DNA from: Lachnospiraceae bacterium
Lineage (GTDB): Bacteria; Bacillota; Clostridia; Lachnospirales; Lachnospiraceae
Assembly: GCA_024403455.1 (NCBI GenBank)
Contig: JAKSRR010000010.1
Span: 37,382 to 101,381 of the forward strand
DNA: 64,000 bases
Direction: 5' to 3'
Of this stretch, positions 6,162 to 32,055 are shown in pieces. The position numbers and the translations under genes are program-made. A model generated the notes under the pieces. The model made no database searches and had not been told where the DNA came from. It saw nothing but the letters and a program-made list of their open reading frames with translations. Numbering within the stretch: position 1 is the stretch's first letter; every line of letters begins with the position of its first letter.

Positions 6162-6551
6162 TTATATCCCTGCTTCTGAAAGCACCTTAGCCACTAGGTC
6201 AACATGCCCCATACAAATATTCTTTCCTTTTCCCGTAAGGGAAGTCATATCTGACCAACCATCTGTAATAGCCGAAAGTGCAAGATTCTTTGCAACCGTC
6301 TTTCCGCTGGCAGGCTGACTGGAACGTTGCAGAATAAATTTATTATTCTTTCCACTAATCTGCACCTGATTCTGCCTATCAATTTCCGGCCACACAATCA
6401 GCTGTTTTCCTAGATAGGGCACCAAAAGTGGACTGCCTGCATCTCGAAAATCCAGTTCCTGAATTACAGAGAAAAGCTGACTAGTATCCGCATAATTTCC
6501 ATGCAATTTTAATTTAATTGTCTTTACGCCCAAGGCTTTACCAAGTCCCAT
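6162..6551 (-). CDS. Hypothetical protein, 129 residues
   Basis: I do not recognise a family. The protein is soluble-looking, with no signal peptide or membrane segment, and is rich in Lys, Gly and Ser. It opens with MGLGKALGVKTIKLKLHG, which looks like a beta strand, and has a central segment LLVPYLGKQLIVWPEIDR. The gene is real by several signs: a strong GGGGAG ribosome site 8 bases before the ATG, its own terminator, and no competing frame. It is monocistronic, between the uvrBA promoter region and the divergent hydrolase gene. Confidence 0.65.
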   Translation of the reverse strand: MGLGKALGVKTIKLKLHGNYADTSQLFSVIQELDFRDAGSPLLVPYLGKQLIVWPEIDRQNQVQISGKNNKFILQRSSQPASGKTVAKNLALSAITDGWSDMTSLTGKGKNICMGHVDLVAKVLSEAGI

Positions 6552-11402: not shown

Positions 11403-12398
11403 CTAATTCTTTAAAGTATAAGTCATCTCAAAAACTTCTTTTTTGATGATGTACACGTCTTCTAAGTCATCTTCACGAACCGCCAGATAATCCCCCGGCA
11501 CCCCTAGATCATAATCTTCACCGCTCTCTTTGCGAAATACCTTGGTTCGATTGGCAAGTGGTATTGCATAAATTCCGCTTCCCCCTCTGGGATAGCAGAG
11601 TCTTGCCATCTCATCGATAGGAATATATTCTCCCGTTTCCTCTTCCTCTGCAGCCGGAATATACTCCATCATCTGATGAAAGACATCCAGTCCCTCCGTA
11701 GAAGACATATACGTTTTATCAAACTTTTCTCTGGAAATATCGTACACCTCACCTTTACAGCCAATCATGATATACTTATCCACTTCAGCAGCAATCATGA
11801 TACCCGAGGTATTTTCCAAAGTCTTTAATAAAAATCTCTTCCCTTCCGGCACAATATCTGTAGACTTCACAAAGGACCAGGGCTTTTTCTTCTTCTCGTA
11901 AAGAGGTCTCTTTACTACTTCCTCCTTGTGGGTCTTGCAATATTCTACGGCACTGATCCATTCGCACTCCGCATAATAGCGATGCAGATTTCTCTGCACA
12001 TAACCAAGCACGCCGCTGCTTTCCTCATTGGCCATTTGCACTTTAAAGATTGCAGTGGAAATCTGGCAGAAAGCTATATTTCCATTTCCTTTCACAAGGG
12101 CAAATTCCGCCATAAGAAAATCTAAAAATTCCAGAGCTCTAATATCCTTATTCTTGCTGACAAAGAAAAGCCTTTCTTCATCCAGTTCCTTCCAGAGAAA
12201 GAGTCCATAATCGAAAGAAGACTGGTCCATATAGGTTTTGCAGTTCTCCACACTTTCTCCTGTTAATGTGTTTGCTCCACGCATGCTGGCTGTTTCCATC
12301 TGGAATATAATAAATTTCTTTTCCATGCAAAGCACGGCCCCTAAGGACCCAGCTGGCATCTCACCCATATATTTTTCAAAGCTTAAATATTGTTCCAT
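11403..12398 (-). CDS. Unknown protein with a duplicated C-terminal motif, third gene of TIR-cyclase operon
   Basis: 331 residues, cytoplasmic, acidic, with no membrane segment or recognised enzyme motif. The N-terminal ~170 residues show no family I know. The C-terminal half contains two copies of a beta-rich unit that each end in the same pattern: DKYIMIGCKGEVYDISREKF followed by DKTY, and GDYLAVREDDLEDVYIIKKE followed by VFEMTY (consensus Y-[IL]-x(6-9)-VY-x-I-x(2-3)-E-x-F-x-x-TY). Such doubled units look like ligand- or protein-binding modules rather than catalysts. The start is 11 bases after the cyclase stop, so it is very likely co-expressed with the cyclase and the TIR protein. No cyclic-nucleotide-binding (CAP-type) signature is visible. 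Confidence 0.7.
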   Translation of the reverse strand: MEQYLSFEKYMGEMPAGSLGAVLCMEKKFIIFQMETASMRGANTLTGESVENCKTYMDQSSFDYGLFLWKELDEERLFFVSKNKDIRALEFLDFLMAEFALVKGNGNIAFCQISTAIFKVQMANEESSGVLGYVQRNLHRYYAECEWISAVEYCKTHKEEVVKRPLYEKKKKPWSFVKSTDIVPEGKRFLLKTLENTSGIMIAAEVDKYIMIGCKGEVYDISREKFDKTYMSSTEGLDVFHQMMEYIPAAEEEETGEYIPIDEMARLCYPRGGSGIYAIPLANRTKVFRKESGEDYDLGVPGDYLAVREDDLEDVYIIKKEVFEMTYTLKN

Positions 12399-12409
12399 CC
12401 TGTCACCTA

Positions 12410-13903
12410 TTAGCTTCTTCGAAGATCATCTACATAGTTTTCAAATCCACGACTGGTTCTGGTAAAGTGAATCGTTATTTCATCATTTTCCTGCGCAACA
12501 ATCTTTCCAAATACACTGGTAAATAGCGCATGTCCATTCTCTGAAACCGCAAAGATTTCCACATCTGTGTAAAGCGGCAGACTCTTTGTCTTATCCTCTA
12601 ATCGCACCAAGGCTCTTCTTCTGCTAATAAAGATAAGCTCTGCCGGAGATACCGTTTCCGAAACAATTTTCTCCTCAATGGGAAACATATTGAAAATAAC
12701 GCGGCCTGTCACAAAACTCATGGCATTGATATCCACGTTATTAATCATCATCTGATACTTTCCTTCAATACCAATGACTTCAACTACCTGTAGTGGTCTC
12801 TGGGTTCCCTTCGCCTGAATATCCTGATAGTTTTTCTTTTTCAACGGACATCTTACTTCTGCAATGGCCTCTCTGGAAACCAGAATCTGTCCGCCAACAG
12901 AAAATCCTTCCACGCGGGAACACTCGTTGACAATACGTCCTACTACGTTGTATCGCATCATAGTCTCAGAGCCTACATTACCAATAAACACATCTCCCCG
13001 ATGAATGCCAATACCCATCTCTAACTGCGGATATCCCTGGTCTCTGCAAAATTCCTGTACTTCCTCCATGGCATTCTGCATCATAATGGACGCAGCAATG
13101 GCTTCCTCCGTGTGGTTGTCTTCACTATTGGTGGCACCAAATACCGCCAAAATCCCATCTCCTAGCAGCTCGATGATAATACCTTTATATTTCAAAATGG
13201 CAGCCACCATTCTGTCAAAATAAAAGTTCAGAATCTTCTTCACTTCTTCTGGATCCAGCCCTTCAGAAATAGCCGTAAATCCCCGAAGGTCACTCATAAG
13301 AACGGTCACTTCCTTCTTCTCACCGCCTAGACCTTCGCTACCAGGATGCTCTAAAATCTCCCGTACAATTTCATCCGGAAAGTATCTTCCAAACACTTTA
13401 TAAAGGAGCTCATTTCTTCTCTTTAACTGCTCGTTTAATTCTACAACCTCTTTGGTCTGGTGCAGATGATATGCCTGCTTCTGCAGCATCTTTTCATAAT
13501 TCTTCGTTACTTCATGTTGCCAGGCAATACGCTCAATACGGAGAAGACCTGTCGCTGTAAAAGGTTTAGAAACCACCACGATCGCACCACGTTCAAAACA
13601 GACTTCATCTCGTTCCGCATTTCTCTCTTCCATCATAAAGAAAATCGGCACACCCGCTAAAATCATCTGCTCCCGCATCATGCGAAGTACTTCAAAGCCA
13701 TCCTGCACACAGGTATCATAATCAAAAAGAATCAGGGCCGGTAAATTTTCACTCCCCGGATCCTGGTTCTCCATAATAGCATGTTCTGCTGCCTGCCTGG
13801 ACAAAATAGCAATAGCTCGCATGCTGCCTTGCGAATTAATTTGTCTTTGCGTGTAGATCATGGCCTTGCGGTCAAAATCCACCACCCAGATAATTTTCTC
13901 CAT
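12410..13903 (-). CDS. Receiver domain - class III nucleotide cyclase
   Basis: 497 residues in three parts. Residues 1-125 form a CheY-like receiver (FDYD phospho-acceptor region, late Lys in VVSKPFTATGL). A coiled-coil linker (about 135-175) leads to a class III cyclase domain (about 195-370), then ~120 residues of unassigned beta-rich C-terminus. Both metal-binding aspartates are present (MSDLRGFTAISEG and LLGDGILAVFGA), as are the transition-state Asn and Arg in VNECSR. The purine-selecting positions are atypical: Glu in IIELLGDG, where adenylate cyclases have Lys and guanylate cyclases Glu, and Asn in RYNVVG, where they have Asp/Thr or Cys. Product (cGMP or another cyclic nucleotide) is therefore open. 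It sits 13 bases downstream of the TIR gene. Confidence 0.9.
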   Translation of the reverse strand: MEKIIWVVDFDRKAMIYTQRQINSQGSMRAIAILSRQAAEHAIMENQDPGSENLPALILFDYDTCVQDGFEVLRMMREQMILAGVPIFFMMEERNAERDEVCFERGAIVVVSKPFTATGLLRIERIAWQHEVTKNYEKMLQKQAYHLHQTKEVVELNEQLKRRNELLYKVFGRYFPDEIVREILEHPGSEGLGGEKKEVTVLMSDLRGFTAISEGLDPEEVKKILNFYFDRMVAAILKYKGIIIELLGDGILAVFGATNSEDNHTEEAIAASIMMQNAMEEVQEFCRDQGYPQLEMGIGIHRGDVFIGNVGSETMMRYNVVGRIVNECSRVEGFSVGGQILVSREAIAEVRCPLKKKNYQDIQAKGTQRPLQVVEVIGIEGKYQMMINNVDINAMSFVTGRVIFNMFPIEEKIVSETVSPAELIFISRRRALVRLEDKTKSLPLYTDVEIFAVSENGHALFTSVFGKIVAQENDEITIHFTRTSRGFENYVDDLRRS

Positions 13904-13916
13904 AGATGACTGTCTC

Positions 13917-14795
13917 TTATTTTCTTAATAAGCTGTGCCAGATATCACCCTTCTGTGTTGGCGTTCCACCTGTCTGATTGAGTGCTCTGGACTTACAGCT
14001 ATCACAATACTCTCCTGAGCGAATCGGTGCTCCACAACTTTTACAGGAAACTCTGACTTCACTCTGCTGCGGAATTTCCAAAAATTCCTCTCTAAAAAGT
14101 GCTTCTATCGTCGAACGGGAAACACCTGTCTCCTGTTCAATAACGGATGCAGGCGCTTTTCCTACTACCCCTAGATAATTACGAATCTTCTGAAAGTCAT
14201 CGTAATTTTCGTAACCACAAGTGAGGCAGGTATAGGTTCCAAGCTTTGTATTTTTTAAAAATGATCCTCGGCACTTCTCGCAGGTTACAGGGATGTGATT
14301 GATTCGCAGGGAGTTGGTCGAACGAAGTCCGCCTCGGCTTCCGGGTTTTATCTTTCCACCTGGCATCGTCCCTGCCGGAACCGGTGCTGCCTGCACATTT
14401 GGAGCAAAGACTGCATCTATCTGTCCTTTTAGATCTATTAGCTGTTCAGACAACTCTCTTTTATAAGAAATCATCTGCACATTGCTTAGATAAAACTGAA
14501 ACGTGCTGGATATAGGCGCCTGATCCAACTGTATCGGAAAAACTCTTACGCGATGAGACAATGCATGATCAAGCTCTTTCTCAACCCATATGGAATTCAT
14601 AGAATTTGCCGAAAGGATTAGAATAAAAGCCTGGGCACTCTCAATCGCCTGAGGGATTTCCTTTGCATAGCTGGAACCCGCAGGAATCATATCCGGAGCC
14701 ATCCAATAGGAATAATTCCAGGCAGATAGTTCCTGCGCAATACGCTTTGCAAATACCATATCTTTTGTACTGTAGCTAATAAACATGCGTCCCAT
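13917..14795 (-). CDS. TIR domain protein with zinc ribbons
   Basis: 292 residues. The N-terminal ~115 residues are a bacterial TIR domain: MFISYSTKDMVFAKRIAQEL, box-2-like MAPDMIPAGSSY, and SMNSIWVEKELDHAL, where the Glu in W..KEL matches the catalytic glutamate of NAD-cleaving TIR domains. A Pro/Gly linker follows, then a zinc ribbon (CEKC...CLTC), a helix-turn-helix-like segment (VIEQETGVSRSTIEALF) and a second zinc ribbon (CKSC...CDSC). TIR domains either hydrolyse NAD+, make cyclic ADP-ribose signals, or act as scaffolds. First gene of a tight operon with the cyclase. No signal peptide. The ribosome site is weak; a second ATG three codons later is possible. Confidence 0.88.
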   Translation of the reverse strand: MGRMFISYSTKDMVFAKRIAQELSAWNYSYWMAPDMIPAGSSYAKEIPQAIESAQAFILILSANSMNSIWVEKELDHALSHRVRVFPIQLDQAPISSTFQFYLSNVQMISYKRELSEQLIDLKGQIDAVFAPNVQAAPVPAGTMPGGKIKPGSRGGLRSTNSLRINHIPVTCEKCRGSFLKNTKLGTYTCLTCGYENYDDFQKIRNYLGVVGKAPASVIEQETGVSRSTIEALFREEFLEIPQQSEVRVSCKSCGAPIRSGEYCDSCKSRALNQTGGTPTQKGDIWHSLLRK

Positions 14796-22654: not shown

Positions 22655-22688
22655 CAAAAAATAGGACTACTCAGCATAGAGTAGTCCT
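22655..22688 (-). terminator. Terminator of the seven-gene kinase/FHA operon
   Basis: Perfect 10-bp stem AGGACTACTC / GAGTAGTCCT with a 6-base loop, followed on the minus strand by ATTTTTTGG. It lies 50 bases after the last gene of the operon. Confidence 0.92.
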
Positions 22689-22738
22689 AAAATGAAATCT
22701 CATACACGCACTTTGTCTTGTAAAATCATCCGTCTTCC

Positions 22739-23611
22739 CTAAAAGCGCACCTTGAATTTTGCACTTCCAATCTGTATCACGTCACCATTATCTAATGGAT
22801 TCATCCGCTGAATCTGCATATCTGCAAGATAGGTTGCCTTCTTCAGAGAAAGATTTTCGATATAGTAGGTGCCATCCATAAAATAAATTCTTGCATGAAT
22901 CTTGGATACATCAGAATCATTAAATACAATATTACAAATGCTTGCACGACCAATGAGCACCTGCTCATCAAAGGAGAAGGATAGTTCCGGATTCACAAGG
23001 GAACCATTTTCTACTTCTAACTTGATGCTGTGGCTTCCTGTGGTAGGGGTAAAAGTCGCACTCATATCTCTTGCAGAAGCCTTAACCTTCTTTTCCTTGC
23101 TAGGTTCCTTTTCTTCTTTCAGTTTTCTTAAAAGAATCCATACCAATCCTGCTGTCTCTAACAATACAATGATTGCTAAAATCACCGTTGGTACCACATT
23201 AATCTTCTGGGGCAGACTTGCATAGATATCCATACGATTGGATACACCCGTCTGTGCTGCTTCCACAGTACTCTGCACATCAGAAACCGTGTTCAGAATC
23301 CCTGTCGTCATGCTTGTGATGCCTCCCACAATTCCAGTAGGCTCTGCTACTACATCTTCAGAAACACTGGTAATTGTTGCTACCACCGCATCTGATGAAA
23401 CACTAGTAGTTGTTACCACTTCCTCTGAATCATTAGTTGCCTCTTCCGCATCATCTGCGGTCTTCTCTTCAGATTCTGCTGTAGCAGTATTTTCTTCTGT
23501 AATCGCAACTTCCCCGTCCTCGCACAGCGCAATGCTTTCTACACCAGTTCCTACTCCCGGCACAAGAAGATGTAAGGTTGTCATGCAAACAATCAGCATT
23601 TTTTGAAACAT
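22739..23611 (-). CDS. Membrane-anchored FHA domain protein
   Basis: 290 residues. A signal-like N-terminus (MLIVCMTTLHLLVPGVGTG) is followed by a Thr/Ser/Glu-rich extracytoplasmic segment (~30-135), one membrane helix (VPTVILAIIVLLETAGLVWILL, ~140-161), and a basic cytoplasmic linker. The C-terminal FHA domain (about 205-290) has LIGRASICNI, SKIHARI and NGDVIQIG, matching the GR..S.N...SR.HA pattern, although the usual SRxHA is SKIHA. FHA domains bind phosphothreonine peptides, so the protein probably recruits phosphorylated partners to the membrane. Last gene of the operon, 31 bases after a PP2C gene. Confidence 0.88.
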   Translation of the reverse strand: MFQKMLIVCMTTLHLLVPGVGTGVESIALCEDGEVAITEENTATAESEEKTADDAEEATNDSEEVVTTTSVSSDAVVATITSVSEDVVAEPTGIVGGITSMTTGILNTVSDVQSTVEAAQTGVSNRMDIYASLPQKINVVPTVILAIIVLLETAGLVWILLRKLKEEKEPSKEKKVKASARDMSATFTPTTGSHSIKLEVENGSLVNPELSFSFDEQVLIGRASICNIVFNDSDVSKIHARIYFMDGTYYIENLSLKKATYLADMQIQRMNPLDNGDVIQIGSAKFKVRF

Positions 23612-23642
23612 TATTCTATCCTCACTTTTTAGACTGAAGTAT

Positions 23643-24368
23643 CTACTTTACAATCACTGTCATAATCGACAGATTATCATTCTCTTCATTAATGCGATCC
23701 ATTAATCTAAGGAGCAAGTGCTTGGCCCAGGCTTCTGCATTTACCGCTCTCTGCAGATCAATACCGATTTCTCCGTCGCGAATAAATTCCCACATTCCAT
23801 CGCTACAAAGCAAAAATGCATCCCCAGGCACAATGGAAGTTTCTGGCGCATAAATCTCTGGCTTACAGCGATCTTCACTGCCTACCGTTCGTAAAAGTGC
23901 GGATTGATCCGGATCCGTACAAATTTCCTGTCTTGTTATTTCTCCGCCTTTGTATTTCTTGTAAGCAACAGAATGGTCATTGGTATAAGACTGCACTTCT
24001 CCTTCATGCACATAGTATAGTCTGGAGTCACCTACATTGGCCCATACTGCTTTGTCTCCTACAACAGAAAGTGCAACCACTGTACTCTTAAGTACAGAAT
24101 TACGTTCCTCCTGCTCTTTTAGTATTCTTCGATTCGACTCTATAATCTTTTCCTGAAGCCATCCCTTCTGGTCCGGCTGGAATGTGCCATCCCACTCTTC
24201 AACCATGGTATTGCATACGATTTCAGACGCCAACTCTCCAAAGGAGTGTCCACCAAGTCCATCAGCAACCACAAAAATACCATTTTGTTCTATGGTTCGA
24301 AAGGATACGTGATCCTGATTATAAGATCTTCCACCTTTATTTGTATACGCAAATACATCAAATTTCAT
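23643..24368 (-). CDS. PP2C-family Ser/Thr phosphatase
   Basis: 241 residues of the PPM/PP2C fold. Metal-binding motifs are NQDHVSF near the N-terminus, VADGLGGHSFGE, ANVGDSRLYY, LLCSDGMWEF and the terminal ENDNLSIMTVIV. All the expected aspartates are present, so it should be an active Mn2+/Mg2+-dependent phosphatase. No membrane segment. It would reverse phosphorylation by the two kinases of the same operon. It shares the fold with the neighbouring PP2C gene but the two are clearly diverged. Confidence 0.93.
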   Translation of the reverse strand: MKFDVFAYTNKGGRSYNQDHVSFRTIEQNGIFVVADGLGGHSFGELASEIVCNTMVEEWDGTFQPDQKGWLQEKIIESNRRILKEQEERNSVLKSTVVALSVVGDKAVWANVGDSRLYYVHEGEVQSYTNDHSVAYKKYKGGEITRQEICTDPDQSALLRTVGSEDRCKPEIYAPETSIVPGDAFLLCSDGMWEFIRDGEIGIDLQRAVNAEAWAKHLLLRLMDRINEENDNLSIMTVIVK

Positions 24369-24410
24369 AGGTGCATTCTTTTCCTTCTCTGTTCTTTCAA
24401 CAACTACGGA

Positions 24411-25172
24411 CTACACAACACACTTCACAACGATGGCTGTGTAATTATCCTGATTTTTCTTTTTATGTGCTAATACAGAACGTTCAATCGCTGCACACAT
24501 CATTTCCGGCTGAGGATAACTTAGTACAGCTTTAATCTCCTCTTCCGATAATACTCCACCCACACCATCAGAGCAGGCAAGAAGGACATCCCCTTCATGA
24601 AGCTTCATCGGTCTAACGGACCCATCAATTTCAGACAATCCTGCATATCCCAAAAACTGAGTGAGTGCAGCTGTATCTGGATGCACTCTGGCAGGTTCAG
24701 GATCCAGTTCTCCATCCATAATGGCTTCGTCATACATCTGGTTGCGAAGATTATGTTCTGTGTTCAACTGAAAAAGATCCTCTCCTCGTTTTAGAAAGAG
24801 AAAACTGTCTCCTACGGAAGCATAATATAATCCATCGTCATAAATCATACAGGTAACCGCCGTGGAACCACCCTGTCCCTCTAAAAGCTTCTCTACTTCT
24901 GCAGAAGACTCATAGACACTCTGCTTTAACTGTGCTGCGATATTTTTGGAAACATTCATGTTTTCAAAATTTTTAACAATGTAGGTGATTGCCGTCTCAC
25001 TTGCTACCTTGCCATCGCGCATTCCACCCATTCCATCGCACACAACAAAAAGAAGACCCTTCTCTTTACTGACTTTTACATTATGATCATTTACATATGC
25101 AAAGGAATCTTCCTGTCTGGCCCTTGTGCCAATTCCCTGTACACTTGCAATATGATAGCTTTGCTGTGGCAT
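24411..25172 (-). CDS. PP2C-family Ser/Thr phosphatase
   Basis: 253 residues. Metal-site motifs: ARQEDSF, VVCDGMGGMRDGKVAS, YASVGDSFLFL, LLACSDGVGG and KNQDNYTAIVV. It resembles PstP/PppA-type phosphatases that counter Hanks-type kinases. It begins 4 bases after the stop of the FHA-repeat protein, implying coupled translation with that likely substrate or partner. Having a second phosphatase in one operon is notable; the two differ in the variable flap region and could act on different substrates. Confidence 0.93.
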   Translation of the reverse strand: MPQQSYHIASVQGIGTRARQEDSFAYVNDHNVKVSKEKGLLFVVCDGMGGMRDGKVASETAITYIVKNFENMNVSKNIAAQLKQSVYESSAEVEKLLEGQGGSTAVTCMIYDDGLYYASVGDSFLFLKRGEDLFQLNTEHNLRNQMYDEAIMDGELDPEPARVHPDTAALTQFLGYAGLSEIDGSVRPMKLHEGDVLLACSDGVGGVLSEEEIKAVLSYPQPEMMCAAIERSVLAHKKKNQDNYTAIVVKCVV

Positions 25173-25176
25173 AGTA

Positions 25177-26814
25177 TTACTCCTCAGTTGCTTCTTCTGT
25201 TACCGTAGTATCTTCTCCTGCTTTGATTCCATCATTCCAATTGAATTTATCATTACAGAATGGTACATACACCAGAGTGGTTGCTCCAAACTCTATCTTA
25301 TCGAAAGCCTGCAGCTTTTCTGGCTGAATGACTGCTTCTCCATGCAGATAAATGTTGGAAGAGTTTTCTCCCGGAACCAAATAGCAGACATTATGCTTAG
25401 AGTCATAGTTAATCTTTGCATAATTTTCTCTGGATATTGCAGTATCTCCCTGGATAGAAATATCCATATGTCCGCCACGACCAACCGTGTTAATCTTCTC
25501 GTAAATTCTATAGTCCTTACCTTTTTCGGCACCTTCAATACATACAAGCCATCCTACTACAGGTTCCGTCTTCGTACTTACGTTTTTCTGAACAATACCT
25601 ACTGTTTTACCTATATCTTCAGAAGAATCTCCACCTAACTGTGGCACAGGCATCTGCAGCGGCTGGGAAAGTTGAGAAATGCCTCCACCCATCGGCGGCA
25701 CTACAGGACTCACCGGCTGCTGATTATTATTTGGCTGCACACCCATTGGCTGAGGCACAGGCTGCATAGCACCAGGCATGGGCTGCATGCCATTTTGCAT
25801 TGGTTGAGGCATAGGCTGCATACCATTCTGGGGCATAGGATTCCCCATCGGCATCTGATTCATAACTGGCTGGTTGGGTTGCTTCAATTTATCACCCAAC
25901 TTCTGGAATATATTCTTTTTCGGCGCCTGTTGCTGGGGCACACCATAAGGATTCTGTCCCTGTGGCATTCCATTATTCATCATCTGTCCTGGAGCCATCA
26001 TTCCTGGCTGAGACATAGATTGTTGAGGCATAGGCTGGACACCTACAGGTGCTGATTGCATATTACCCAAAGGGGAGGCCATCATGGCAGGATTCATACC
26101 ATTGTTTTGAGGAATGGGCTGGGGTATGGGCTGCATCATCGGCTGAGGCATACTACTTTGCGGCATCGGATTTCCTATAGGCTGCATTACTGGTGCGCTC
26201 ATTCCGGCCTGTGGCATAGCATTACCCATAGGTTCCTGCGCAGGAGCCTTTTCCATCTGCTGGGCATTCTGGTTTGCCAGCGCATTCTGTCTTCTAACCT
26301 CTGCTGAATTTACATTATTGGCAGGCATCGTTTTTCCAATATCTACAGAAGGTGCTGCTACATTCGATGCTGGCATTGTTTTTCCAATATCTACGGAAGG
26401 TGCTGCTACATTCGATGCTGGCATTGTTTTTCCAATATCTACGGAAGGTGCTGCCACATTCATTGCGGGCATTGTCTTTCCGATATCTGCCGAGGGCGCT
26501 GCTACATTCATTGCGGGCATTGTTTTTCCGATATCTGCCGAAGGCGCTGCTACAAAGGGTGCAGGTATAGACTCTTCAGCAACTACAGGTGCTGCCGGCA
26601 TAACAGGCATCTGGGGTAAATCAACTTCTACTGTTTTATCCGCTTCCAAAACGGGAGCATTTACAGACGGACTTGTCGTCTCTTCTTTACTGCCTGCCAT
26701 CTCTGCAATGGGAGCAAAACTCTTGATTACTACACCACCATTTTGGCAATAAGGACAGGTTGCATTCTGATCCGTATTATATAAATGACCCTGATCACAT
26801 TTTACGAAAGCCAT
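25177..26814 (-). CDS. Zinc-ribbon / threonine-repeat / FHA domain protein
   Basis: 545 residues. N-terminal zinc ribbon (KCDQGHLYNTDQNATCPYC), then an acidic linker with EADKTVEVD. Next are five tandem 16-residue repeats whose core is DIGKTMPA (about residues 85-165), a long low-complexity Pro/Met/Gln-rich region (~180-400), another copy of the core (EDIGKTVG), and a C-terminal FHA domain (about 420-525; NTVGRGGHMDISIQ, ISRENYAKI). FHA domains bind phosphothreonine, so the repeated GKT threonines are good candidates for kinase targets that the FHA domain of this or a neighbouring protein reads. No signal peptide or membrane helix. Genetically between the kinase and PP2C genes. Confidence 0.88.
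   Translation of the reverse strand: MAFVKCDQGHLYNTDQNATCPYCQNGGVVIKSFAPIAEMAGSKEETTSPSVNAPVLEADKTVEVDLPQMPVMPAAPVVAEESIPAPFVAAPSADIGKTMPAMNVAAPSADIGKTMPAMNVAAPSVDIGKTMPASNVAAPSVDIGKTMPASNVAAPSVDIGKTMPANNVNSAEVRRQNALANQNAQQMEKAPAQEPMGNAMPQAGMSAPVMQPIGNPMPQSSMPQPMMQPIPQPIPQNNGMNPAMMASPLGNMQSAPVGVQPMPQQSMSQPGMMAPGQMMNNGMPQGQNPYGVPQQQAPKKNIFQKLGDKLKQPNQPVMNQMPMGNPMPQNGMQPMPQPMQNGMQPMPGAMQPVPQPMGVQPNNNQQPVSPVVPPMGGGISQLSQPLQMPVPQLGGDSSEDIGKTVGIVQKNVSTKTEPVVGWLVCIEGAEKGKDYRIYEKINTVGRGGHMDISIQGDTAISRENYAKINYDSKHNVCYLVPGENSSNIYLHGEAVIQPEKLQAFDKIEFGATTLVYVPFCNDKFNWNDGIKAGEDTTVTEEATEE
26324..26563 (-). repeat. Five 48-bp in-frame tandem repeats inside the FHA gene
   Basis: Units begin at 26324, 26372, 26420, 26468 and 26516. 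Each encodes one DIGKTMPA-containing 16-residue repeat. Neighbouring copies fall into two near-identical subgroups (copies 2-3 and 4-5), a sign of recent duplication by slippage or unequal crossover. The outermost unit diverges at its end. Confidence 0.9.
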
Positions 26815-26831
26815 ACGCTACTCCTTTTTCT

Positions 26832-28631
26832 CTAATATGAAATATCAGTTCCCTGAATCCATACGGTTATATAGTTTGTATTTTCTGCTTCATTAAATTC
26901 CGCAGTAATAATAATTCCAGAGGCATTAGGAAGACTCAGTCGATTCACTAATTCCCAACCACTCTTTGCATTCATTAAAAGCAGAAACTCCTGCGTTGCG
27001 GAATCGCTATTCTGCAGACTTGTCATATCTAGTTCATCAAATATCTGGTCCAGGAAAATATCGTTATCATCCAGATTGTCATTTAACGCAGCTACACAAT
27101 TATTACTTAGTAAGGTGCAGTAAGCCTTATCTGCCTCATACCAACTGTCTTCCAGTTTCTGGGTTGCCGTCGAGCTAAGTCCCATTTGCTTGCTAAGTAA
27201 AATTTCATGTGCCTTACGAAGGTTACCACTCTCTTCGTAGCTAAACATGTCCTTGATCAACTCGGCTCTATCTGATGCATCCAGGTATCCTTTTGCTGTT
27301 TCGTAACTATCCAGCGCTTTTTCATACTTTCCTGCATTCATATAGGATTCCGCATCTTCATAGGCATCCTTCTTCTTCACCATATCTCTAGATGCTTCCG
27401 CCTGTTTCTTTGCATCCTTATAGAATGAGATAGCATCAAAAGCCTTTGCAGCTTCTTCATATTTCTCCTGTGCATAAAGCGCGTTGGCCTCTTTATAGGC
27501 ATTTCCCCACTTTGTAAACAGGAGAACAAGCACTACCGCAGCCGCGGCAACAACGCCTCCAATAATCACAAAAATAGGCCAGATCTTTTTCTTCTTCTGT
27601 TCTGATGATACAGGTGTGGAAGCAGTCATCGGCTGATTACCCGTTGTCGGTATATACCCATTGGGAACAAATGTACCACCAGAAGCAGGCACACTAGGTG
27701 CCATAGGAGACGGTACCTGCTGTGGCTGCATATAGCTGTTAATGCTAGACTGCTCCTTTACACTGGTAAGTGCATTCTTAAACACGCGCATTCCCTGAAA
27801 ACGATTTTCCGGGATGACCGCCAATGCCATAAGTAGCGCACTCTCTTGGTCTGGGGTAATCTGCACACCCATGGCAGAGGGTCTGACCATTTCATCCCTT
27901 TCCAAACGATCAATCGCATCCGGTGGACGCTGTCCCGTCAGTGCAAAGTAGAATGTTGCACCCATGGAGTATACGTCTGTAAAAGGACCTTGCTTACCAC
28001 GTCTGGAGTATTGCTCCTTAGGTGCAAACCCATGTTTCAAAACAATATCAAGACTCTGGCTCTTATCCCCCAGACTATATCTCGCCGCACCGAAATCTAT
28101 TAACTTAACATCTCCACTCTCCGTTATGAAAATGTTATCCGGCGTAACATCTCTGTGAATGATTCCCTTATCATGTACCTGCGCCAACGCTTCCATGACG
28201 GGAAGAAGAATCTTTTCTGTCGTAGGATAATCTACTCTTCCGCCGTTTCTTCGGATAAATTCTTCAAAGCTTTCCCCTTCCACGAAATCCATTACGAAAT
28301 ACGCGGTATCATTTTCTTCAAAATATCCAAGCACATGAACTATGCCTGGAACTTCGCTAAATTCCGCAAGGGTTTCTGCCTCCTGCAAGAAACAGGATTT
28401 TCCGTAATTAAAGTTTTCCTGACGCTCACCAGAAAAAGATGTTACCGTTGTGCCTGTACGGGTAACCATCGCATCTGGAAAAAATTCCTTGATTGCAACT
28501 TTTAAGTTTGTTTCGTATTCAACAGCCTGGTAGGTTATACCAAAACCACCCTGTCCTAAAACTCGTTCTAGTACGTATTTTCCTGCTAATACAGTTCCTT
28601 CAGGTAATGCTAAGGGGTACTTTTCACTCAT
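26832..28631 (-). CDS. Hanks-type Ser/Thr kinase with membrane helix and outer TPR-like domain
   Basis: 599 residues. Kinase domain ~15-290: Gly loop GQGGFGITY, VAIKEF lysine, catalytic HRDVTPDN and LIDFGAAR. The activation segment lacks the usual GTxxYxAPE and instead reads KHGFAPKEQYSRRG. A Pro-rich linker leads to one membrane helix (~350-372, FVIIGGVVAAAAVVLVLLF), then an extracytoplasmic part with TPR-like repeats (ANALYAQEKYEEAAKAF, AESYMNAGKYEKALDSY). It is therefore a receptor-like kinase that could sense an outside ligand and phosphorylate cytoplasmic FHA-pathway proteins. Located 23 bases after the propeller-protein gene. Confidence 0.93.
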   Translation of the reverse strand: MSEKYPLALPEGTVLAGKYVLERVLGQGGFGITYQAVEYETNLKVAIKEFFPDAMVTRTGTTVTSFSGERQENFNYGKSCFLQEAETLAEFSEVPGIVHVLGYFEENDTAYFVMDFVEGESFEEFIRRNGGRVDYPTTEKILLPVMEALAQVHDKGIIHRDVTPDNIFITESGDVKLIDFGAARYSLGDKSQSLDIVLKHGFAPKEQYSRRGKQGPFTDVYSMGATFYFALTGQRPPDAIDRLERDEMVRPSAMGVQITPDQESALLMALAVIPENRFQGMRVFKNALTSVKEQSSINSYMQPQQVPSPMAPSVPASGGTFVPNGYIPTTGNQPMTASTPVSSEQKKKKIWPIFVIIGGVVAAAAVVLVLLFTKWGNAYKEANALYAQEKYEEAAKAFDAISFYKDAKKQAEASRDMVKKKDAYEDAESYMNAGKYEKALDSYETAKGYLDASDRAELIKDMFSYEESGNLRKAHEILLSKQMGLSSTATQKLEDSWYEADKAYCTLLSNNCVAALNDNLDDNDIFLDQIFDELDMTSLQNSDSATQEFLLLMNAKSGWELVNRLSLPNASGIIITAEFNEAENTNYITVWIQGTDISY

Positions 28632-28654
28632 CTTTGTGCCACGCTCTCTTCATC

Positions 28655-30211
28655 TTATTCTGGAAGATCAATATACAGAGTGGTAAAATCCTCTGTATCA
28701 TAATCGTAATGCAGTGCAAGGAAGTTCGTAGATCTGGGAACCATATTAATAGTTAATATAAGTCCGGTTCCTTCATAAACCATATTCAGATCCAGCGTCT
28801 CAATGTCCTCACTATATACAGTACAATAATCATCTGCGCTATTGCTGAATCCATAATACAGGACACCATCTCTAACATTAAGACAGGTACAATCCATGGT
28901 CGTTTCTAATATATCCAAGGTGTCACATGCTGCATAATAGGTATCATACATACCTATCTCGTAACCATCATCTGTCGCATCCGCCCAATAGATGTAATTA
29001 TCATACGCCACCATTGCTACAGGACTATTTACAGTACAGATGTACTCTTCATATCCGTACCCCATCTTTTCCACTGGACAACAATACATGACACCAACGG
29101 GATCCACATAGTAGATGTTGCCATCCCAAATGCTAACGCAAGCCGGGTCATAGATTTCGGTATCTGGACTGTCATTATTTACAGAGATATAGAAACTATC
29201 CGTTTCCAAATCCTTGTAAACTAGGATAATGTCATCTGCAGCCGCAACAAGATACCATATATCGGAACTCTCCTCTGCGTCAAAAACAAGTTCCGTCTGT
29301 CCAGAAGTATTTGCCTTCCAAATTTCATAATCCTTGTTATAGAAAATGCTGTCATCACTATAGGCGTATAGTCCATCAATACCGCCTTCATCAATCACTA
29401 CGCTATCTCCATTTTTAGGCTGGAAGTAAAGACATTTATCTCCCTCATCAGCATAAAAATAGCCGTTGGGTGTATCTACCGCATATCCCCAGTTTGCAAA
29501 AATATTATTAATAGCGATGGCATCAAAGGTCTGAACGCGGCCAGAGCTTTCCTGTGCCTGGCGCTCAGCCTCTTCCTGTGCCAGTCTTGCCTCTTCTGCA
29601 GCAGCGGCCTCTTCTGCTTCTCTTCTTGCCTGTTCTTCTGCTTCTTTTCTTGCCTGTTCCTCTGCCTCTCGCTGGGCCTGACGCTCTGCTTCTCTAGCCT
29701 GACGCTCTGCTTCTTCTTTTTCCAGACGAAGTCTCTCTGCTTCCTCGGCTTCCTGCTGTGCCTTCACCTTCTGGTTGTGATTAATAATACCAAAGGCAGC
29801 ACCGCCGCCACCTAAAACAACCACAGAGGCAACAATACTAATAATCACGGGAAGCTTACTCTTCTTTTTCTGCGTAGGATCTTCCCCATTGATGTAGGTT
29901 ACAGGAGGCATGGCGCCATAGGTTGGCGGAACCTGCTGCGGCATTGTTCCATACATCGGTGTCTGGTTTGGCATACCCTGGGGCTGCGTTCCATACACAG
30001 GCATCTGAACCGGTGCTCCCGGCATATCATAAGGACTCTGGGGCTGTGGCTGAACATTATCCGCTTTGGGAGCATACGGGCTAACCGGCTGGGCTGGCAT
30101 ATAGGGGTTCTGTAAAGGAACCGTTTTCCCAACTTCTCCCATGGGAGGAACTGGCTGCTGGCCAGGCATCCCGCTATTCATTTGCTGATTATACATTTCT
30201 TCTGGTGTCAC
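28655..30211 (-). CDS. Membrane protein with coiled stalk and propeller-like outer domain
   Basis: 518 residues. The N-terminus carries one copy of the operon's threonine motif (GEVGKTVPLQN) and a Pro/Gln-rich cytoplasmic segment. One membrane helix follows (~122-145, LPVIISIVASVVVLGGGGAAF), then a ~75-residue uninterrupted Glu/Arg/Ala/Gln helix (QAREAERQAQREAEEQARKE and similar), which would be a long rigid stalk. The C-terminal ~290 residues contain repeated Tyr/Asp-rich strands (DGLYAYSDDSIFYN, IWDGNIYYVDPVG, VAYDNYIYWADATDDG, VRDGVLYYGFSN) resembling DUF5050/TolB-like propellers. Likely a sensor or ligand-binding partner whose inner tail is a kinase/FHA target. Lies between the two kinase genes. 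Confidence 0.82.
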   Translation of the reverse strand: MTPEEMYNQQMNSGMPGQQPVPPMGEVGKTVPLQNPYMPAQPVSPYAPKADNVQPQPQSPYDMPGAPVQMPVYGTQPQGMPNQTPMYGTMPQQVPPTYGAMPPVTYINGEDPTQKKKSKLPVIISIVASVVVLGGGGAAFGIINHNQKVKAQQEAEEAERLRLEKEEAERQAREAERQAQREAEEQARKEAEEQARREAEEAAAAEEARLAQEEAERQAQESSGRVQTFDAIAINNIFANWGYAVDTPNGYFYADEGDKCLYFQPKNGDSVVIDEGGIDGLYAYSDDSIFYNKDYEIWKANTSGQTELVFDAEESSDIWYLVAAADDIILVYKDLETDSFYISVNNDSPDTEIYDPACVSIWDGNIYYVDPVGVMYCCPVEKMGYGYEEYICTVNSPVAMVAYDNYIYWADATDDGYEIGMYDTYYAACDTLDILETTMDCTCLNVRDGVLYYGFSNSADDYCTVYSEDIETLDLNMVYEGTGLILTINMVPRSTNFLALHYDYDTEDFTTLYIDLPE

Positions 30212-30249
30212 TTTTTTCTCCTGTTCTCGTATCGGGACGATATATTCTT

Positions 30250-32007
30250 CTATCCCAGATTTTTTCGAATTTGCTGCAACATATTTGTTTTCTGCTCAAT
30301 CTGCTGTTGTTTTAATCTAATCAGTTCTTTTGTCTGTTCTATTTTTGAGGTCAGCTTACTTCTTCTGGAAAGTTCCCTCGAGGAACAATCCGACACCCCT
30401 GCCTCACAACTCAGCAAAACTGCTTCTAAATCTCGCTTTTCCTCGTTCAGCTGTAAGAGTTCCATCTTCAATTGATTAAACTGCATTTCTTCTTTCAGCT
30501 GAGACTCTGTTTTTTTCGGAACCTGCTGGCCCTCGCTCCTTGCCATTCCGCTTTGTGTATGTTGCAGTTGACTGATGTTATTCCGAATCTGTTGAATCAT
30601 ATTCGCTTTGCGGTCAATCTGCTGCTGTTTGGACTGAATCTGTTCTTTGATTTTTTTAACTTGCGCAGTAAGTTTTCTTTTTCTATTAAACTCTCCTGCT
30701 GAACAGTCTGCCAAACCTTCCTCATAACTAAGCAGGATGTCTTCCATATCCCTCTTCTCTTCATTCAGCTGCAAAAGTTCCAACTTCCAACGATTATAGT
30801 TCTCCTGCAGATCCTCTACAGAAGGAGGGGTCATATTTCCTGCAGGTGATGGTTTCCATGCAGCAACCGGTTTCTGATAATTCGGATCATAGGGCTTCAA
30901 TGCCTGCGCGTTCATAGACGGCTGTCTAAGGGGCATCTTCCCGCTCGCTGCAGTTCCTAAGGGGACATTCTGCGCGGGCGCATTTTGCAATGGAGCCTGC
31001 TGCATAAAGGTACTCTGCATAGAACTGTTTTGCATCGGAATATTCTGCACAGGTATATTTTGTCCTGGCGCAACTAGCTGATTCCCAAAAACGGCTACCG
31101 TGGCCATTGGATTCGGCTGCTGTTGCAATTGCACCATGCCACGAAGTGCATGAATAAATGCCGACATCTTCTGAAATCTATTGGCGGCCTGTACAGCTAG
31201 TGCCATCATAAGTACGTTCTCTTTTTCTGTAGAAATCACAGCACCTTCTTTACTAGGCGGAAGTAGTTCATCATTCTCCAGTCGGTCAATCGAATCCATT
31301 GGTCTATGACCCGTTAATGCCGTATAAAAACAAGCCGCGGTGGAATACACATCCGTAAAGGGACCCTGACGTCCTCTTCTCGAATACTGCTCTTTCGGTG
31401 CAAAACCATGTTTTAGCACCACATCCAGAGACTTACTCTTATCTCCCAGACTCTGTCTCGCTGCACCAAAGTCTAGCAGCTTCACCGTTCCATCTTTCAA
31501 AATGTATATGTTGTCGGGAGCAACATCTCTATGTACAACACCCTTTTCATGCACTTTACTGAGAGCCTCCATCACAGGAAGCATAATCTTTTCGGTTTCT
31601 TCGTAACTGAGCTTCCCACCTTTTTGGGAAAGATACTCTGAAAAACTCTGTCCCTCTAAATAGTCCATGACATAGTATGCTGTAGAGTTTTCCTCAAAAT
31701 AGCAATAGATGCTTACAATACCTTGAATCCCAGAAAAAGATGCCAGAGTTTTGGCCTCTTCCAAAAAGCAATCCATACCATAGGTATAGTTTACGGCATA
31801 CTCCCCACCATGATGCGTTACCGTTGTCCCCATTCTGGTAGCCAAACAATCTGGAAAGTATTCTTTTATTGCCACACTACGTCCCGAATCATAATCGGTC
31901 GCTTTGTATGTAATACCAAATCCACCCTGTCCTAGTACGCGATCCACAATATATTTTCCTGCAAGGACCGAACCGGAAGGTAAGGCTAATGGATACTCTT
32001 TTTCCAT
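30250..32007 (-). CDS. Cytoplasmic Hanks-type Ser/Thr kinase with duplicated coiled coil
   Basis: 585 residues. Kinase domain ~10-285 is a paralogue of the neighbouring kinase: GQGGFGITY, VAIKEYF, HRDVAPDN, LLDFGAAR, and the same activation segment KHGFAPKEQYSRRG. A Gln/Pro/Met-rich linker (QNIPVQNIPMQNSSMQ) follows. The C-terminus has two ~77-residue coiled-coil repeats, both starting with ELLQLNEEKRD and ending in QQIRxN. There is no membrane helix. Start at 32007 (ATG) chosen because AAAGGG lies 8 bases upstream; a GTG three codons earlier is too close to that site. First gene of the seven-gene operon. Confidence 0.92.
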   Translation of the reverse strand: MEKEYPLALPSGSVLAGKYIVDRVLGQGGFGITYKATDYDSGRSVAIKEYFPDCLATRMGTTVTHHGGEYAVNYTYGMDCFLEEAKTLASFSGIQGIVSIYCYFEENSTAYYVMDYLEGQSFSEYLSQKGGKLSYEETEKIMLPVMEALSKVHEKGVVHRDVAPDNIYILKDGTVKLLDFGAARQSLGDKSKSLDVVLKHGFAPKEQYSRRGRQGPFTDVYSTAACFYTALTGHRPMDSIDRLENDELLPPSKEGAVISTEKENVLMMALAVQAANRFQKMSAFIHALRGMVQLQQQPNPMATVAVFGNQLVAPGQNIPVQNIPMQNSSMQSTFMQQAPLQNAPAQNVPLGTAASGKMPLRQPSMNAQALKPYDPNYQKPVAAWKPSPAGNMTPPSVEDLQENYNRWKLELLQLNEEKRDMEDILLSYEEGLADCSAGEFNRKRKLTAQVKKIKEQIQSKQQQIDRKANMIQQIRNNISQLQHTQSGMARSEGQQVPKKTESQLKEEMQFNQLKMELLQLNEEKRDLEAVLLSCEAGVSDCSSRELSRRSKLTSKIEQTKELIRLKQQQIEQKTNMLQQIRKNLG

Positions 32008-32029
32008 AGACAACACCCTTTTCTTAACG

Positions 32030-32055
32030 CAAAAATAGACTGCAAGCAGTCTATT
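32030..32055 (-). terminator. Terminator of the exonuclease III gene
   Basis: AATAGACTGC pairs with GCAGTCTATT around a minimal loop, then TTTTTGCG on the minus strand. It lies 50 bases after the xth stop and is adjacent to the presumed kinase-operon promoter. Confidence 0.8.

Follow-up and report, generated by a model that had tools for sequence, protein, structure and literature searches.

What does a compact set of genes for protein phosphorylation, dephosphorylation and phosphothreonine recognition control when no secretion system lies beside it? The question is raised by a 64,000-nucleotide stretch of the genome of a Lachnospiraceae bacterium (GenBank assembly GCA_024403455.1, contig JAKSRR010000010.1, positions 37,382 to 101,381 of the forward strand), hereafter the window, in which seven minus-strand genes encode, in the order of transcription, the kinase KinC, the membrane protein Prop, the kinase KinT, the FHA protein FHAz, the PP2C phosphatases PPM2 and PPM1, and the FHA protein FHAm. 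The original prediction, made from the letters of the window alone, described a self-contained transmembrane phospho-relay of unknown output. The comparisons reported here lead to another reading, to which we assign a probability of roughly 0.6: there is a conserved membrane phosphothreonine module organized around FHAz, and the operon is one of its reduced, stand-alone members. Several surface receptor kinases may thus feed one phosphorylation switch protein. No published description of the operon was found in the accessible portions of the open-licence PubMed Central literature, and one may be in print elsewhere.

FHAz, of which one was found in the source genome, consists of an N-terminal zinc-ribbon motif, a 393-residue linker rich in proline, methionine and glutamine that carries threonine motifs, and a C-terminal FHA domain resembling those of GarA and OdhI. 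This domain is faint in Pfam (Yop-YscD_cpl, E 0.005, below the cut-off) and is visible only through a family profile, whose top match in the PDB was GarA (7rj3, E 5e-6); Rv1827 phosphorylated at Thr22 (2kfu) was also matched and OdhI (2kb3) ranked fifth, with E values for GarA/OdhI between 5e-6 and 3e-4. When 14 FHAz proteins are aligned, a threonine just ahead of the FHA domain, with the consensus GKTV[AG]V, is conspicuous within an otherwise variable linker. Among 68 unique homologues taken from genome contigs, apart from those used to spot the motif, 64 contain T[VIML][GAS] within the 30 residues that precede the FHA domain (shuffled mean 6.9, maximum 15, 1000 shuffles). The threonine lies exactly 12 residues ahead of PVVGW in 61 of the 63 homologues with T[VIM][GAS], and the residue at +3 is valine, isoleucine, methionine or leucine in 54 of these 63, which fits the known binding preference of FHA domains at this position. 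Its location is similar to that of ETTS in GarA/OdhI, but the string GKTV[AG]V differs. ETTS is described as phosphorylatable and conserved in GarA/OdhI, and PknG sites that have undergone autophosphorylation as recruiting these proteins through the FHA domain (PMC8546545).

Several observations weigh against a GarA-like switch of this kind. Only 18 of 29 unique homologues from the family and genus fetches contain T[VIML][GAS], and the stricter pattern [KRHQ]T[VIM][GASP] occurs in 64 of 97 unique homologues (shuffled mean 2.3, maximum 8, 500 shuffles; the 97 remained from 117 open reading frames once 13 duplicates and seven frames lacking a PVVGW-type anchor had been removed). The strict motif is missing from six of the seven FHAz proteins linked to genes resembling those of a type VI secretion system (T6SS), so the switch is not universal. 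In the window protein, the candidate Thr404 is 14, not 12, residues ahead of PVVGW, a tyrosine replaces the histidine of SRxxH present in most homologues, and the FHA domain alone reached just E 0.37 against the PDB (phmmer). A crude GR/S/H pattern is fitted by only 60 of the 97 homologues, and the alignment to 7rj3, which sets gktvavlqk over GarA VETTSVFRA, has low posterior scores across the linker. On the kinase side, KinC and KinT lack the usual catalytic-loop lysine, as do most members of their subfamily, and their activity is a prediction. A docking motif in the juxtamembrane part of the kinases was rejected, since the enrichment of T[VIM][AGPS] between kinase domain and transmembrane segment was modest (34 of 98 segments; shuffled mean 19.6, maximum 28, 300 shuffles). 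With these points taken into account, we still think it fairly probable that FHAz works as a switch in the manner of GarA and as a docking hub, with input from the two operon kinases and perhaps from three orphan kinases described below.

Additional threonine motifs are present along the linkers. With the last 22 residues omitted, T[VIML][AGP] was counted 143 times, compared with a shuffled mean of 21.5 and a maximum of 33 (300 shuffles), and is found in 71 of the 97 linkers. The window linker exceeds the range of 28-281 residues seen in the 97 homologues and contains a tandem array of such motifs (Table 1). The genus relatives carry DIGKT[AV]P-like and EIGATVAP-like motifs in their linkers, one or two in number or as repeats, and the FHAz linkers of L096 and L058 have different repeat units with similar cores. 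This surplus suggests selection for several docking sites.

The gene neighborhood of FHAz was compared across named genomes by a scan with the FHAz alignment, which gave 551 relatives; the best 80 loci were kept, and distant contexts are under-sampled. Of the same-strand clusters at these 80 loci, 67 include a kinase, 63 have two or more PP2Cs, 60 encode a trypsin-like protein with an FHA domain (trypsin/FHA) and 39 a von Willebrand factor A (vWA) protein. When only the 48 loci with 4 kb or more upstream and 5 kb or more downstream are considered, the corresponding numbers are 47, 44, 39 and 29, and the 47 loci with kinases contain one to five of them. The greedy open reading frame caller hid some genes of the relatives under antisense frames; six-frame counting was applied to the 80 named loci only. 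The exact order kinase-FHAz-PPM2-protease-PPM1 is found at 33 of the 80 loci, in Bacillota and at one locus (L159) that is labelled Muribaculaceae (Bacteroidota), for which a binning error is possible. Other gene orders, some without the protease, are found in Pseudomonadota, Bacillaceae and Syntrophomonadaceae. The hosts of the FHAz relatives kept comprise Lachnospiraceae, Oscillospiraceae, Bacillaceae, Heliobacterium, Syntrophomonadaceae, Methylococcaceae, Comamonadaceae, one Rhodothermota and others. The vWA proteins of the relatives are membrane proteins, often with an FHA domain. The output left unnamed by the original prediction may be narrowed by these frequent companions. PrsW-like genes occur in four of the 80 clusters. 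At one locus (L050:10572-17639), three genes adjoin the operon: two encode FHA-tagged proteins, one a PrsW-like intramembrane protease and the other dynamin-like, and the third encodes another dynamin-like protein, which lacks FHA.

Closer to the source organism, FHAz was matched in 23 of 150 family genomes, and a PPM1 match above 280 bits was found in 10 of 35 genus genomes, the source genome included. All nine other genus loci contain FHAz, PPM2, trypsin/FHA and PPM1; in seven, the last protein has a vWA domain, and kinases were seen in eight, the ninth (L098) beginning too late in its contig. The FHAz of another of these loci (L093) was seen by reading the locus and is not among the counts of FHAz open reading frames. 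The flanks vary among genome groups and are shared by four of the nine loci (L093, L095, L097 and L098). The original description as an operon of kinase, phosphatase and FHA genes is supported, with a core kept in relatives between several different flanks.

The window operon contains the core of this stand-alone set, with kinases, FHAz and two PP2Cs together. Its two PP2C genes are separated by just 42 bases, without a protease gene between them, and the home-made profiles detected no vWA gene in the window. A tree of FHAz, built on 118 columns only, places the window protein in a stand-alone group of 49 rows (support 100/97), apart from a group linked to type VII secretion (78/86) and a group linked to T6SS-like genes (100/98). 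The missing genes could also mean that the window copy is a decayed, non-functional remnant stripped of its protease and vWA effectors, because trypsin/FHA is present in nine of nine genus relatives and was not matched in the window, the best match in the assembled genome, which is 82% complete, being 18 bits. We consider decay improbable, and the least favored of the alternatives weighed here: all seven reading frames and the checked motifs are intact, the threonine repeat has expanded rather than decayed, the protease is also absent from 20 of the 80 clusters, some of them cut by contig ends, and with a genome of this completeness a part could simply be missing.

Table 1. Positions of the operon genes and associated elements within the window.
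Feature	Coordinates	Strand	Description
Intrinsic terminator after last gene	22662..22689	-	11-pair stem, then six T
FHAm	22739..23611	-	Pfam FHA, 55 bits
PPM1, PP2C phosphatase	23643..24368	-	Pfam PP2C; motifs intact
PPM2, PP2C phosphatase	24411..25172	-	Pfam PP2C; motifs intact
FHAz	25177..26814	-	545 aa; zinc-ribbon motif, linker, C-terminal FHA
FHA domain of FHAz (PVVGW onward)	25225..25563	-	Alignment; profile match to PDB
Proposed switch site DIGKTVGI (Thr404) of FHAz	25594..25617	-	Conserved motif; one alignment onto GarA VETTSVFRA
48-bp tandem repeat in FHAz linker, 4.8 copies	26324..26554	-	Five DIGKTMPA units (Thr98, 114, 130, 146, 162)
KinT, Hanks-type kinase	26832..28631	-	Pkinase, 122 bits; transmembrane segment ~353; weak TPR similarity
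Prop	28655..30211	-	518 aa; N-terminal tail, transmembrane segment ~122, coiled coil; possible propeller
KinC, Hanks-type kinase	30250..32016	-	Pkinase, 112 bits; no transmembrane segment; C-terminal coiled coils by eye
Terminator-like hairpin upstream of KinC	32034..32055	-	End of preceding gene or leader hairpin

The seven reading frames follow each other with gaps of 31, 42, 4, 17, 23 and 38 bases, counted from the FHAm end, in agreement with the close same-strand packing first described, and the single terminator noted at the end of the operon is a strong hairpin (Table 1). A terminator-like hairpin also lies upstream of KinC; a promoter-like pair (32086-32058) stands directly ahead of it, so the hairpin might be part of a leader instead of terminating the preceding gene. 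Promoter-like sites in the operon region are not more common than in shuffled sequence. Pfam was run on 12 window proteins and the remaining window genes were judged by eye. The proposed inventory was confirmed for the two kinases, the two PP2Cs, each with the four PP2C motifs, and the FHA domain of FHAm; the FHA domain of FHAz required the family profile, as described above, and the membrane propeller assigned to Prop is weakly supported. Elsewhere in the window, a 129-residue protein (6162-6551) without a Pfam match resembles, by eye, one encoded at L016:16566-16976 of the same genome.

In both kinases the glycine loop, VAIK, HRD and DFG are in place, and the catalytic-loop lysine is replaced by threonine or alanine (HRDVTP, HRDVAP); of 115 related kinases whose HRD is readable, 95 have threonine, serine or alanine at this position. 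KinC probably starts at the ATG at 32007 and not at the GTG at 32016, as judged by eye. It has no predicted transmembrane segment, a correction to the original picture of a transmembrane system. The transmembrane segment of KinT was located by hydropathy, and its C-terminal part matches TPR_2 at E 1.3e-4, below the Pfam cut-off. The activation segment noted in the original prediction is indeed common to both kinases, but it is not peculiar to them: KHGFAPKEQ is found in 38 of 127 unique kinases, the window pair included, and among the 110 with readable HRD and DFG, 23 fit no pattern and the rest have variants. It was dropped as a special feature, being common to much of the kinase family.

The kinase domains of 14 genus-operon kinases and KinT align in 105 of 105 pairs with a median identity of 75.5%. 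For the parts following the transmembrane segment in the same proteins, with Prop and one further ectodomain (L051) added, matches were found in 22 of 136 pairs; both figures are inflated by near-identical copies among the sequences. The source genome gave nine kinase matches. Three further subfamily members are encoded elsewhere in it, with 66-69% identity to the KinT kinase domain and with HRDVTPDN and KHGYAPKEQ, and no PP2C or FHA gene was found near them; they are perhaps further inputs to the FHAz hub. They are located at L013:6337-11760 and L016:7490-9637, the L013 pair flanking a gene for a 447-residue secreted-looking protein.

FHAm has a signal-peptide-like start, a stalk rich in serine, threonine and glutamate that would lie outside the cell, one transmembrane segment at about residue 143 (hydropathy) and a C-terminal FHA domain, for which the best PDB match was ArnA (E 2.6e-6). 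It combines a transmembrane segment with FHA and has no vWA domain, as is also the case at two genus loci (L091 and L092). Prop, whose gene lies between those of the kinases, is an extra membrane protein of the window operon. Its N-terminal tail holds GEVGKTVP (Thr30), and its 518 residues gave neither a Pfam nor a PDB match. A comparison with three kinase ectodomains, one of them DUF5050, gave an hhalign probability of 53% (P 1.4e-4). Prop also weakly matches the ectodomain of a kinase in the operon of genome G157 (25%, E 1.4e-8, with composition bias), and the full-length protein matches the L091 kinase (E 1.2e-8, with strong composition bias); the propeller part alone has no match among 113 loci. 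Our guess is that Prop is a detached kinase ectodomain, or sensor, and KinC the soluble kinase.

Within the window, the home-made profiles, which are not very sensitive (the FHA profile misses FHAm), detected none of the vWA, trypsin, type VII, Hcp-like and GPD-like genes, in line with the reported absence of secretion, tellurite and vWA genes. Likewise, no relative of a protein of about 725 residues found at T6SS-like loci is present in the window; T6SS genes were not searched for in the rest of the genome. TerD is absent from the assembled genome. The original description of an operon lacking a secretion system is correct for the window but not for the genome, which carries a minimal EssC-YukD-WXG-like locus on contig C12. 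This type VII-like locus (L014:9353-15282) encodes an EssC of 1554 residues with an FHA domain, a YukD-like protein below the cut-off, a WXG-like protein recognized by eye and small coiled-coil proteins; Pfam WXG100 has no match in the genome, and no PP2C or substrate gene was recognized beside the EssC locus.

The operon could be an unlinked control module of the type VII system of this genome that regulates EssC in trans, a possibility first favored because of the EssC relatives. The EssC locus has no PP2C nearby, the EssC FHA domain has the usual binding residues (by eye), and two orphan kinases of the operon subfamily (the L013 pair) are on the same contig, C12, about 19-24 kb from EssC. 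The three best family matches of EssC (G109, G012 and G017) are 9-13 kb from kinase-kinase-FHAz-PP2C modules without trypsin/FHA, as in the window; in G017, a gene beyond EssC encodes a trypsin-like protein without FHA. Kinase, PPM and FHA components are described for some type VII subtypes (PMC11217815). The co-occurrence tables and the FHAz tree led us to abandon a type VII control module as the preferred reading; we keep it as an alternative because of the two orphan kinases on the EssC contig. In the genus, with EssC counted at E <= 1e-100, four of 35 genomes have both operon and EssC, six the operon only, six EssC only and 19 neither (Fisher p = 0.42), and four of the six operon-only genomes are 94-100% complete. 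For the 150 family genomes (E <= 1e-50), the association of FHAz with EssC has p = 0.067, or 0.27 if the three linked genomes are removed; weaker matches were taken as FtsK-like, and those left uncounted in the family are five near 1e-21 and a partial one at 5e-34 (G006). The fourth-best EssC belongs to a genome (G002) without an FHAz match, and the window FHAz falls in the stand-alone group of the tree. The window operon thus shows neither linkage to nor co-occurrence with EssC/WXG100, and regulation of EssC in trans is unlikely, if the least unlikely of the alternatives.

An obligate link to T6SS was rejected, because the home-made profiles recognized no T6SS-like parts, Hcp-like or GPD-like, at the best 80 of the 551 FHAz loci; no type VII parts were recognized there either. 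At the family level, Hcp-like genes lie beside FHAz at seven loci (TssD E 0.001, below the cut-off, for the one tested), and a GPD hub-like gene at two. The likeness to secretion control modules drawn at the outset is thus apt, as divergent versions of the module are found near EssC at three and near Hcp-like genes at seven family loci. The T6SS-like loci of the family (L054, L055, L056, L060, L061, L062, L063 and L191) contain an Hcp-like gene, the conserved protein of about 725 residues (no Pfam match in the one tested) and FHAz. Several also encode DnaJ, vWA and PP2C-transmembrane proteins, and L191 a DUF4280 protein.

TerY-P is the name given to triads of kinase, PP2C and vWA genes, and the relatives of the window operon share all three components with them; the window differs in that no vWA was found in it and no TerD in the assembled genome. 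A kinase/PP2C/vWA set is described in the accessible part of PMC7159879. If the operon belonged with the kinase/PP2C/vWA sets of GTPase-centred systems, or with KKP (PfkA-PfkB-PfpC), which likewise has two kinases, a PP2C and an FHA domain, it would be a phage-defence or conflict system with kinase signalling. Its patchy distribution in the genus and the PrsW-FHA and dynamin-FHA proteins of a few relatives would suit this, and the kinases match the PADLOC models PD-T4-6 and MAD6 and the PP2Cs PDC-M21C. A TIR protein and a cyclase gene are about 8 kb off in the window, within a group of three genes (11403-14795) for the TIR-domain protein, a receiver-like protein with a guanylate/adenylate cyclase domain and a 331-residue protein without a Pfam match. 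The PADLOC matches resemble generic kinase/PP2C similarity, for which the defence reading was set aside, and the flanks look mostly housekeeping, by eye only, with no defence survey of them run. According to the accessible text on KKP, its kinases are fused to FHA and cold-shock domains (PMC11341870); by Pfam, the window kinases carry neither, and two PP2Cs are present instead of one. A defence function is accordingly doubtful, slightly more so than control of EssC.

Among characterized proteins, GarA/OdhI are among the closest parallels to FHAz, both for the top PDB matches and for the conserved threonine motif ahead of the FHA domain. FHAz differs from them in its zinc ribbon, its multi-threonine linker and its operon with kinases and two PP2Cs, and no link of FHAz to 2-oxoglutarate dehydrogenase is known. 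The threonine phosphorylation pathway of T6SS, PpkA/PppA/Fha, has the same kinase/PP2C/FHA logic, and FHAz relatives occur near Hcp-like genes, at two loci also with GPD-like genes; in contrast, the window has no T6SS-like genes that could be found, two PP2Cs and a zinc-ribbon FHA hub. The T7SSe type (T7SSf lacks the kinase) shares kinase, PPM and FHA components, and FHAz relatives occur 9-13 kb from EssC in three genomes, but the window FHAz belongs to another tree group and TseJ/TsfJ carry DUF6382 where FHAz has a zinc ribbon. A DUF6382-FHA protein is encoded in the same genome (L015:1347-2597) beside genes that resemble, by eye, those of a Tad pilus. ArnA-ArnB of Sulfolobus pairs a zinc-finger/FHA protein with a vWA partner under phosphorylation, according to the accessible part of PMC6509490, and ArnA is the best match of FHAm; however, that pair is archaeal and controls the archaellum, and FHAz itself matches GarA/OdhI.

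In the preferred reading of a stand-alone module around FHAz, receptor kinases, whose C-terminal domains outside the cell change rapidly, would phosphorylate the threonine sites of the FHAz linker. The phosphothreonine beside the FHA domain would act as in GarA/OdhI, either bound by the FHA domain of FHAz itself, thereby closing the protein, or docking another FHA protein, and the remaining linker sites would let FHA proteins dock at the membrane. Resetting the hub would fall to the two PP2Cs. Signals would run from the kinases to FHAz, with effectors outside as the putative output. A trypsin-like protease is among the FHA proteins of the cluster in most of the relatives read, often along with a vWA protein; in the window operon, only FHAm and Prop remain. 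Nothing points to a chain of phosphotransfer, and the term phospho-relay is not retained.

A wider architecture can be proposed more tentatively, and we hold it somewhat less probable than its opposite. Across several phyla, kinases with interchangeable ectodomains would act on one GarA-like zinc-ribbon FHA hub with a phosphothreonine docking array of variable number, into which effectors tagged with FHA would plug, among them the protease and vWA proteins and sometimes an intramembrane protease or a dynamin. The hub would also serve type VII and T6SS-like machines, and in the window the array would have expanded to five while the protease and vWA effectors were lost.

Hanks-type kinases are common in bacteria, but few have a known dedicated reader or output. 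The operon offers genetically linked kinases, two phosphatases and a reader with a candidate switch threonine, to which relatives add FHA-tagged effectors, and the effect of phosphorylation can be reduced to a few point mutants. GarA-type switches are known from Actinobacteria. If the proposed reading is true, they would be tied to a widespread membrane module outside that group, and the origin of the kinase and FHA components in some secretion loci may be explained.

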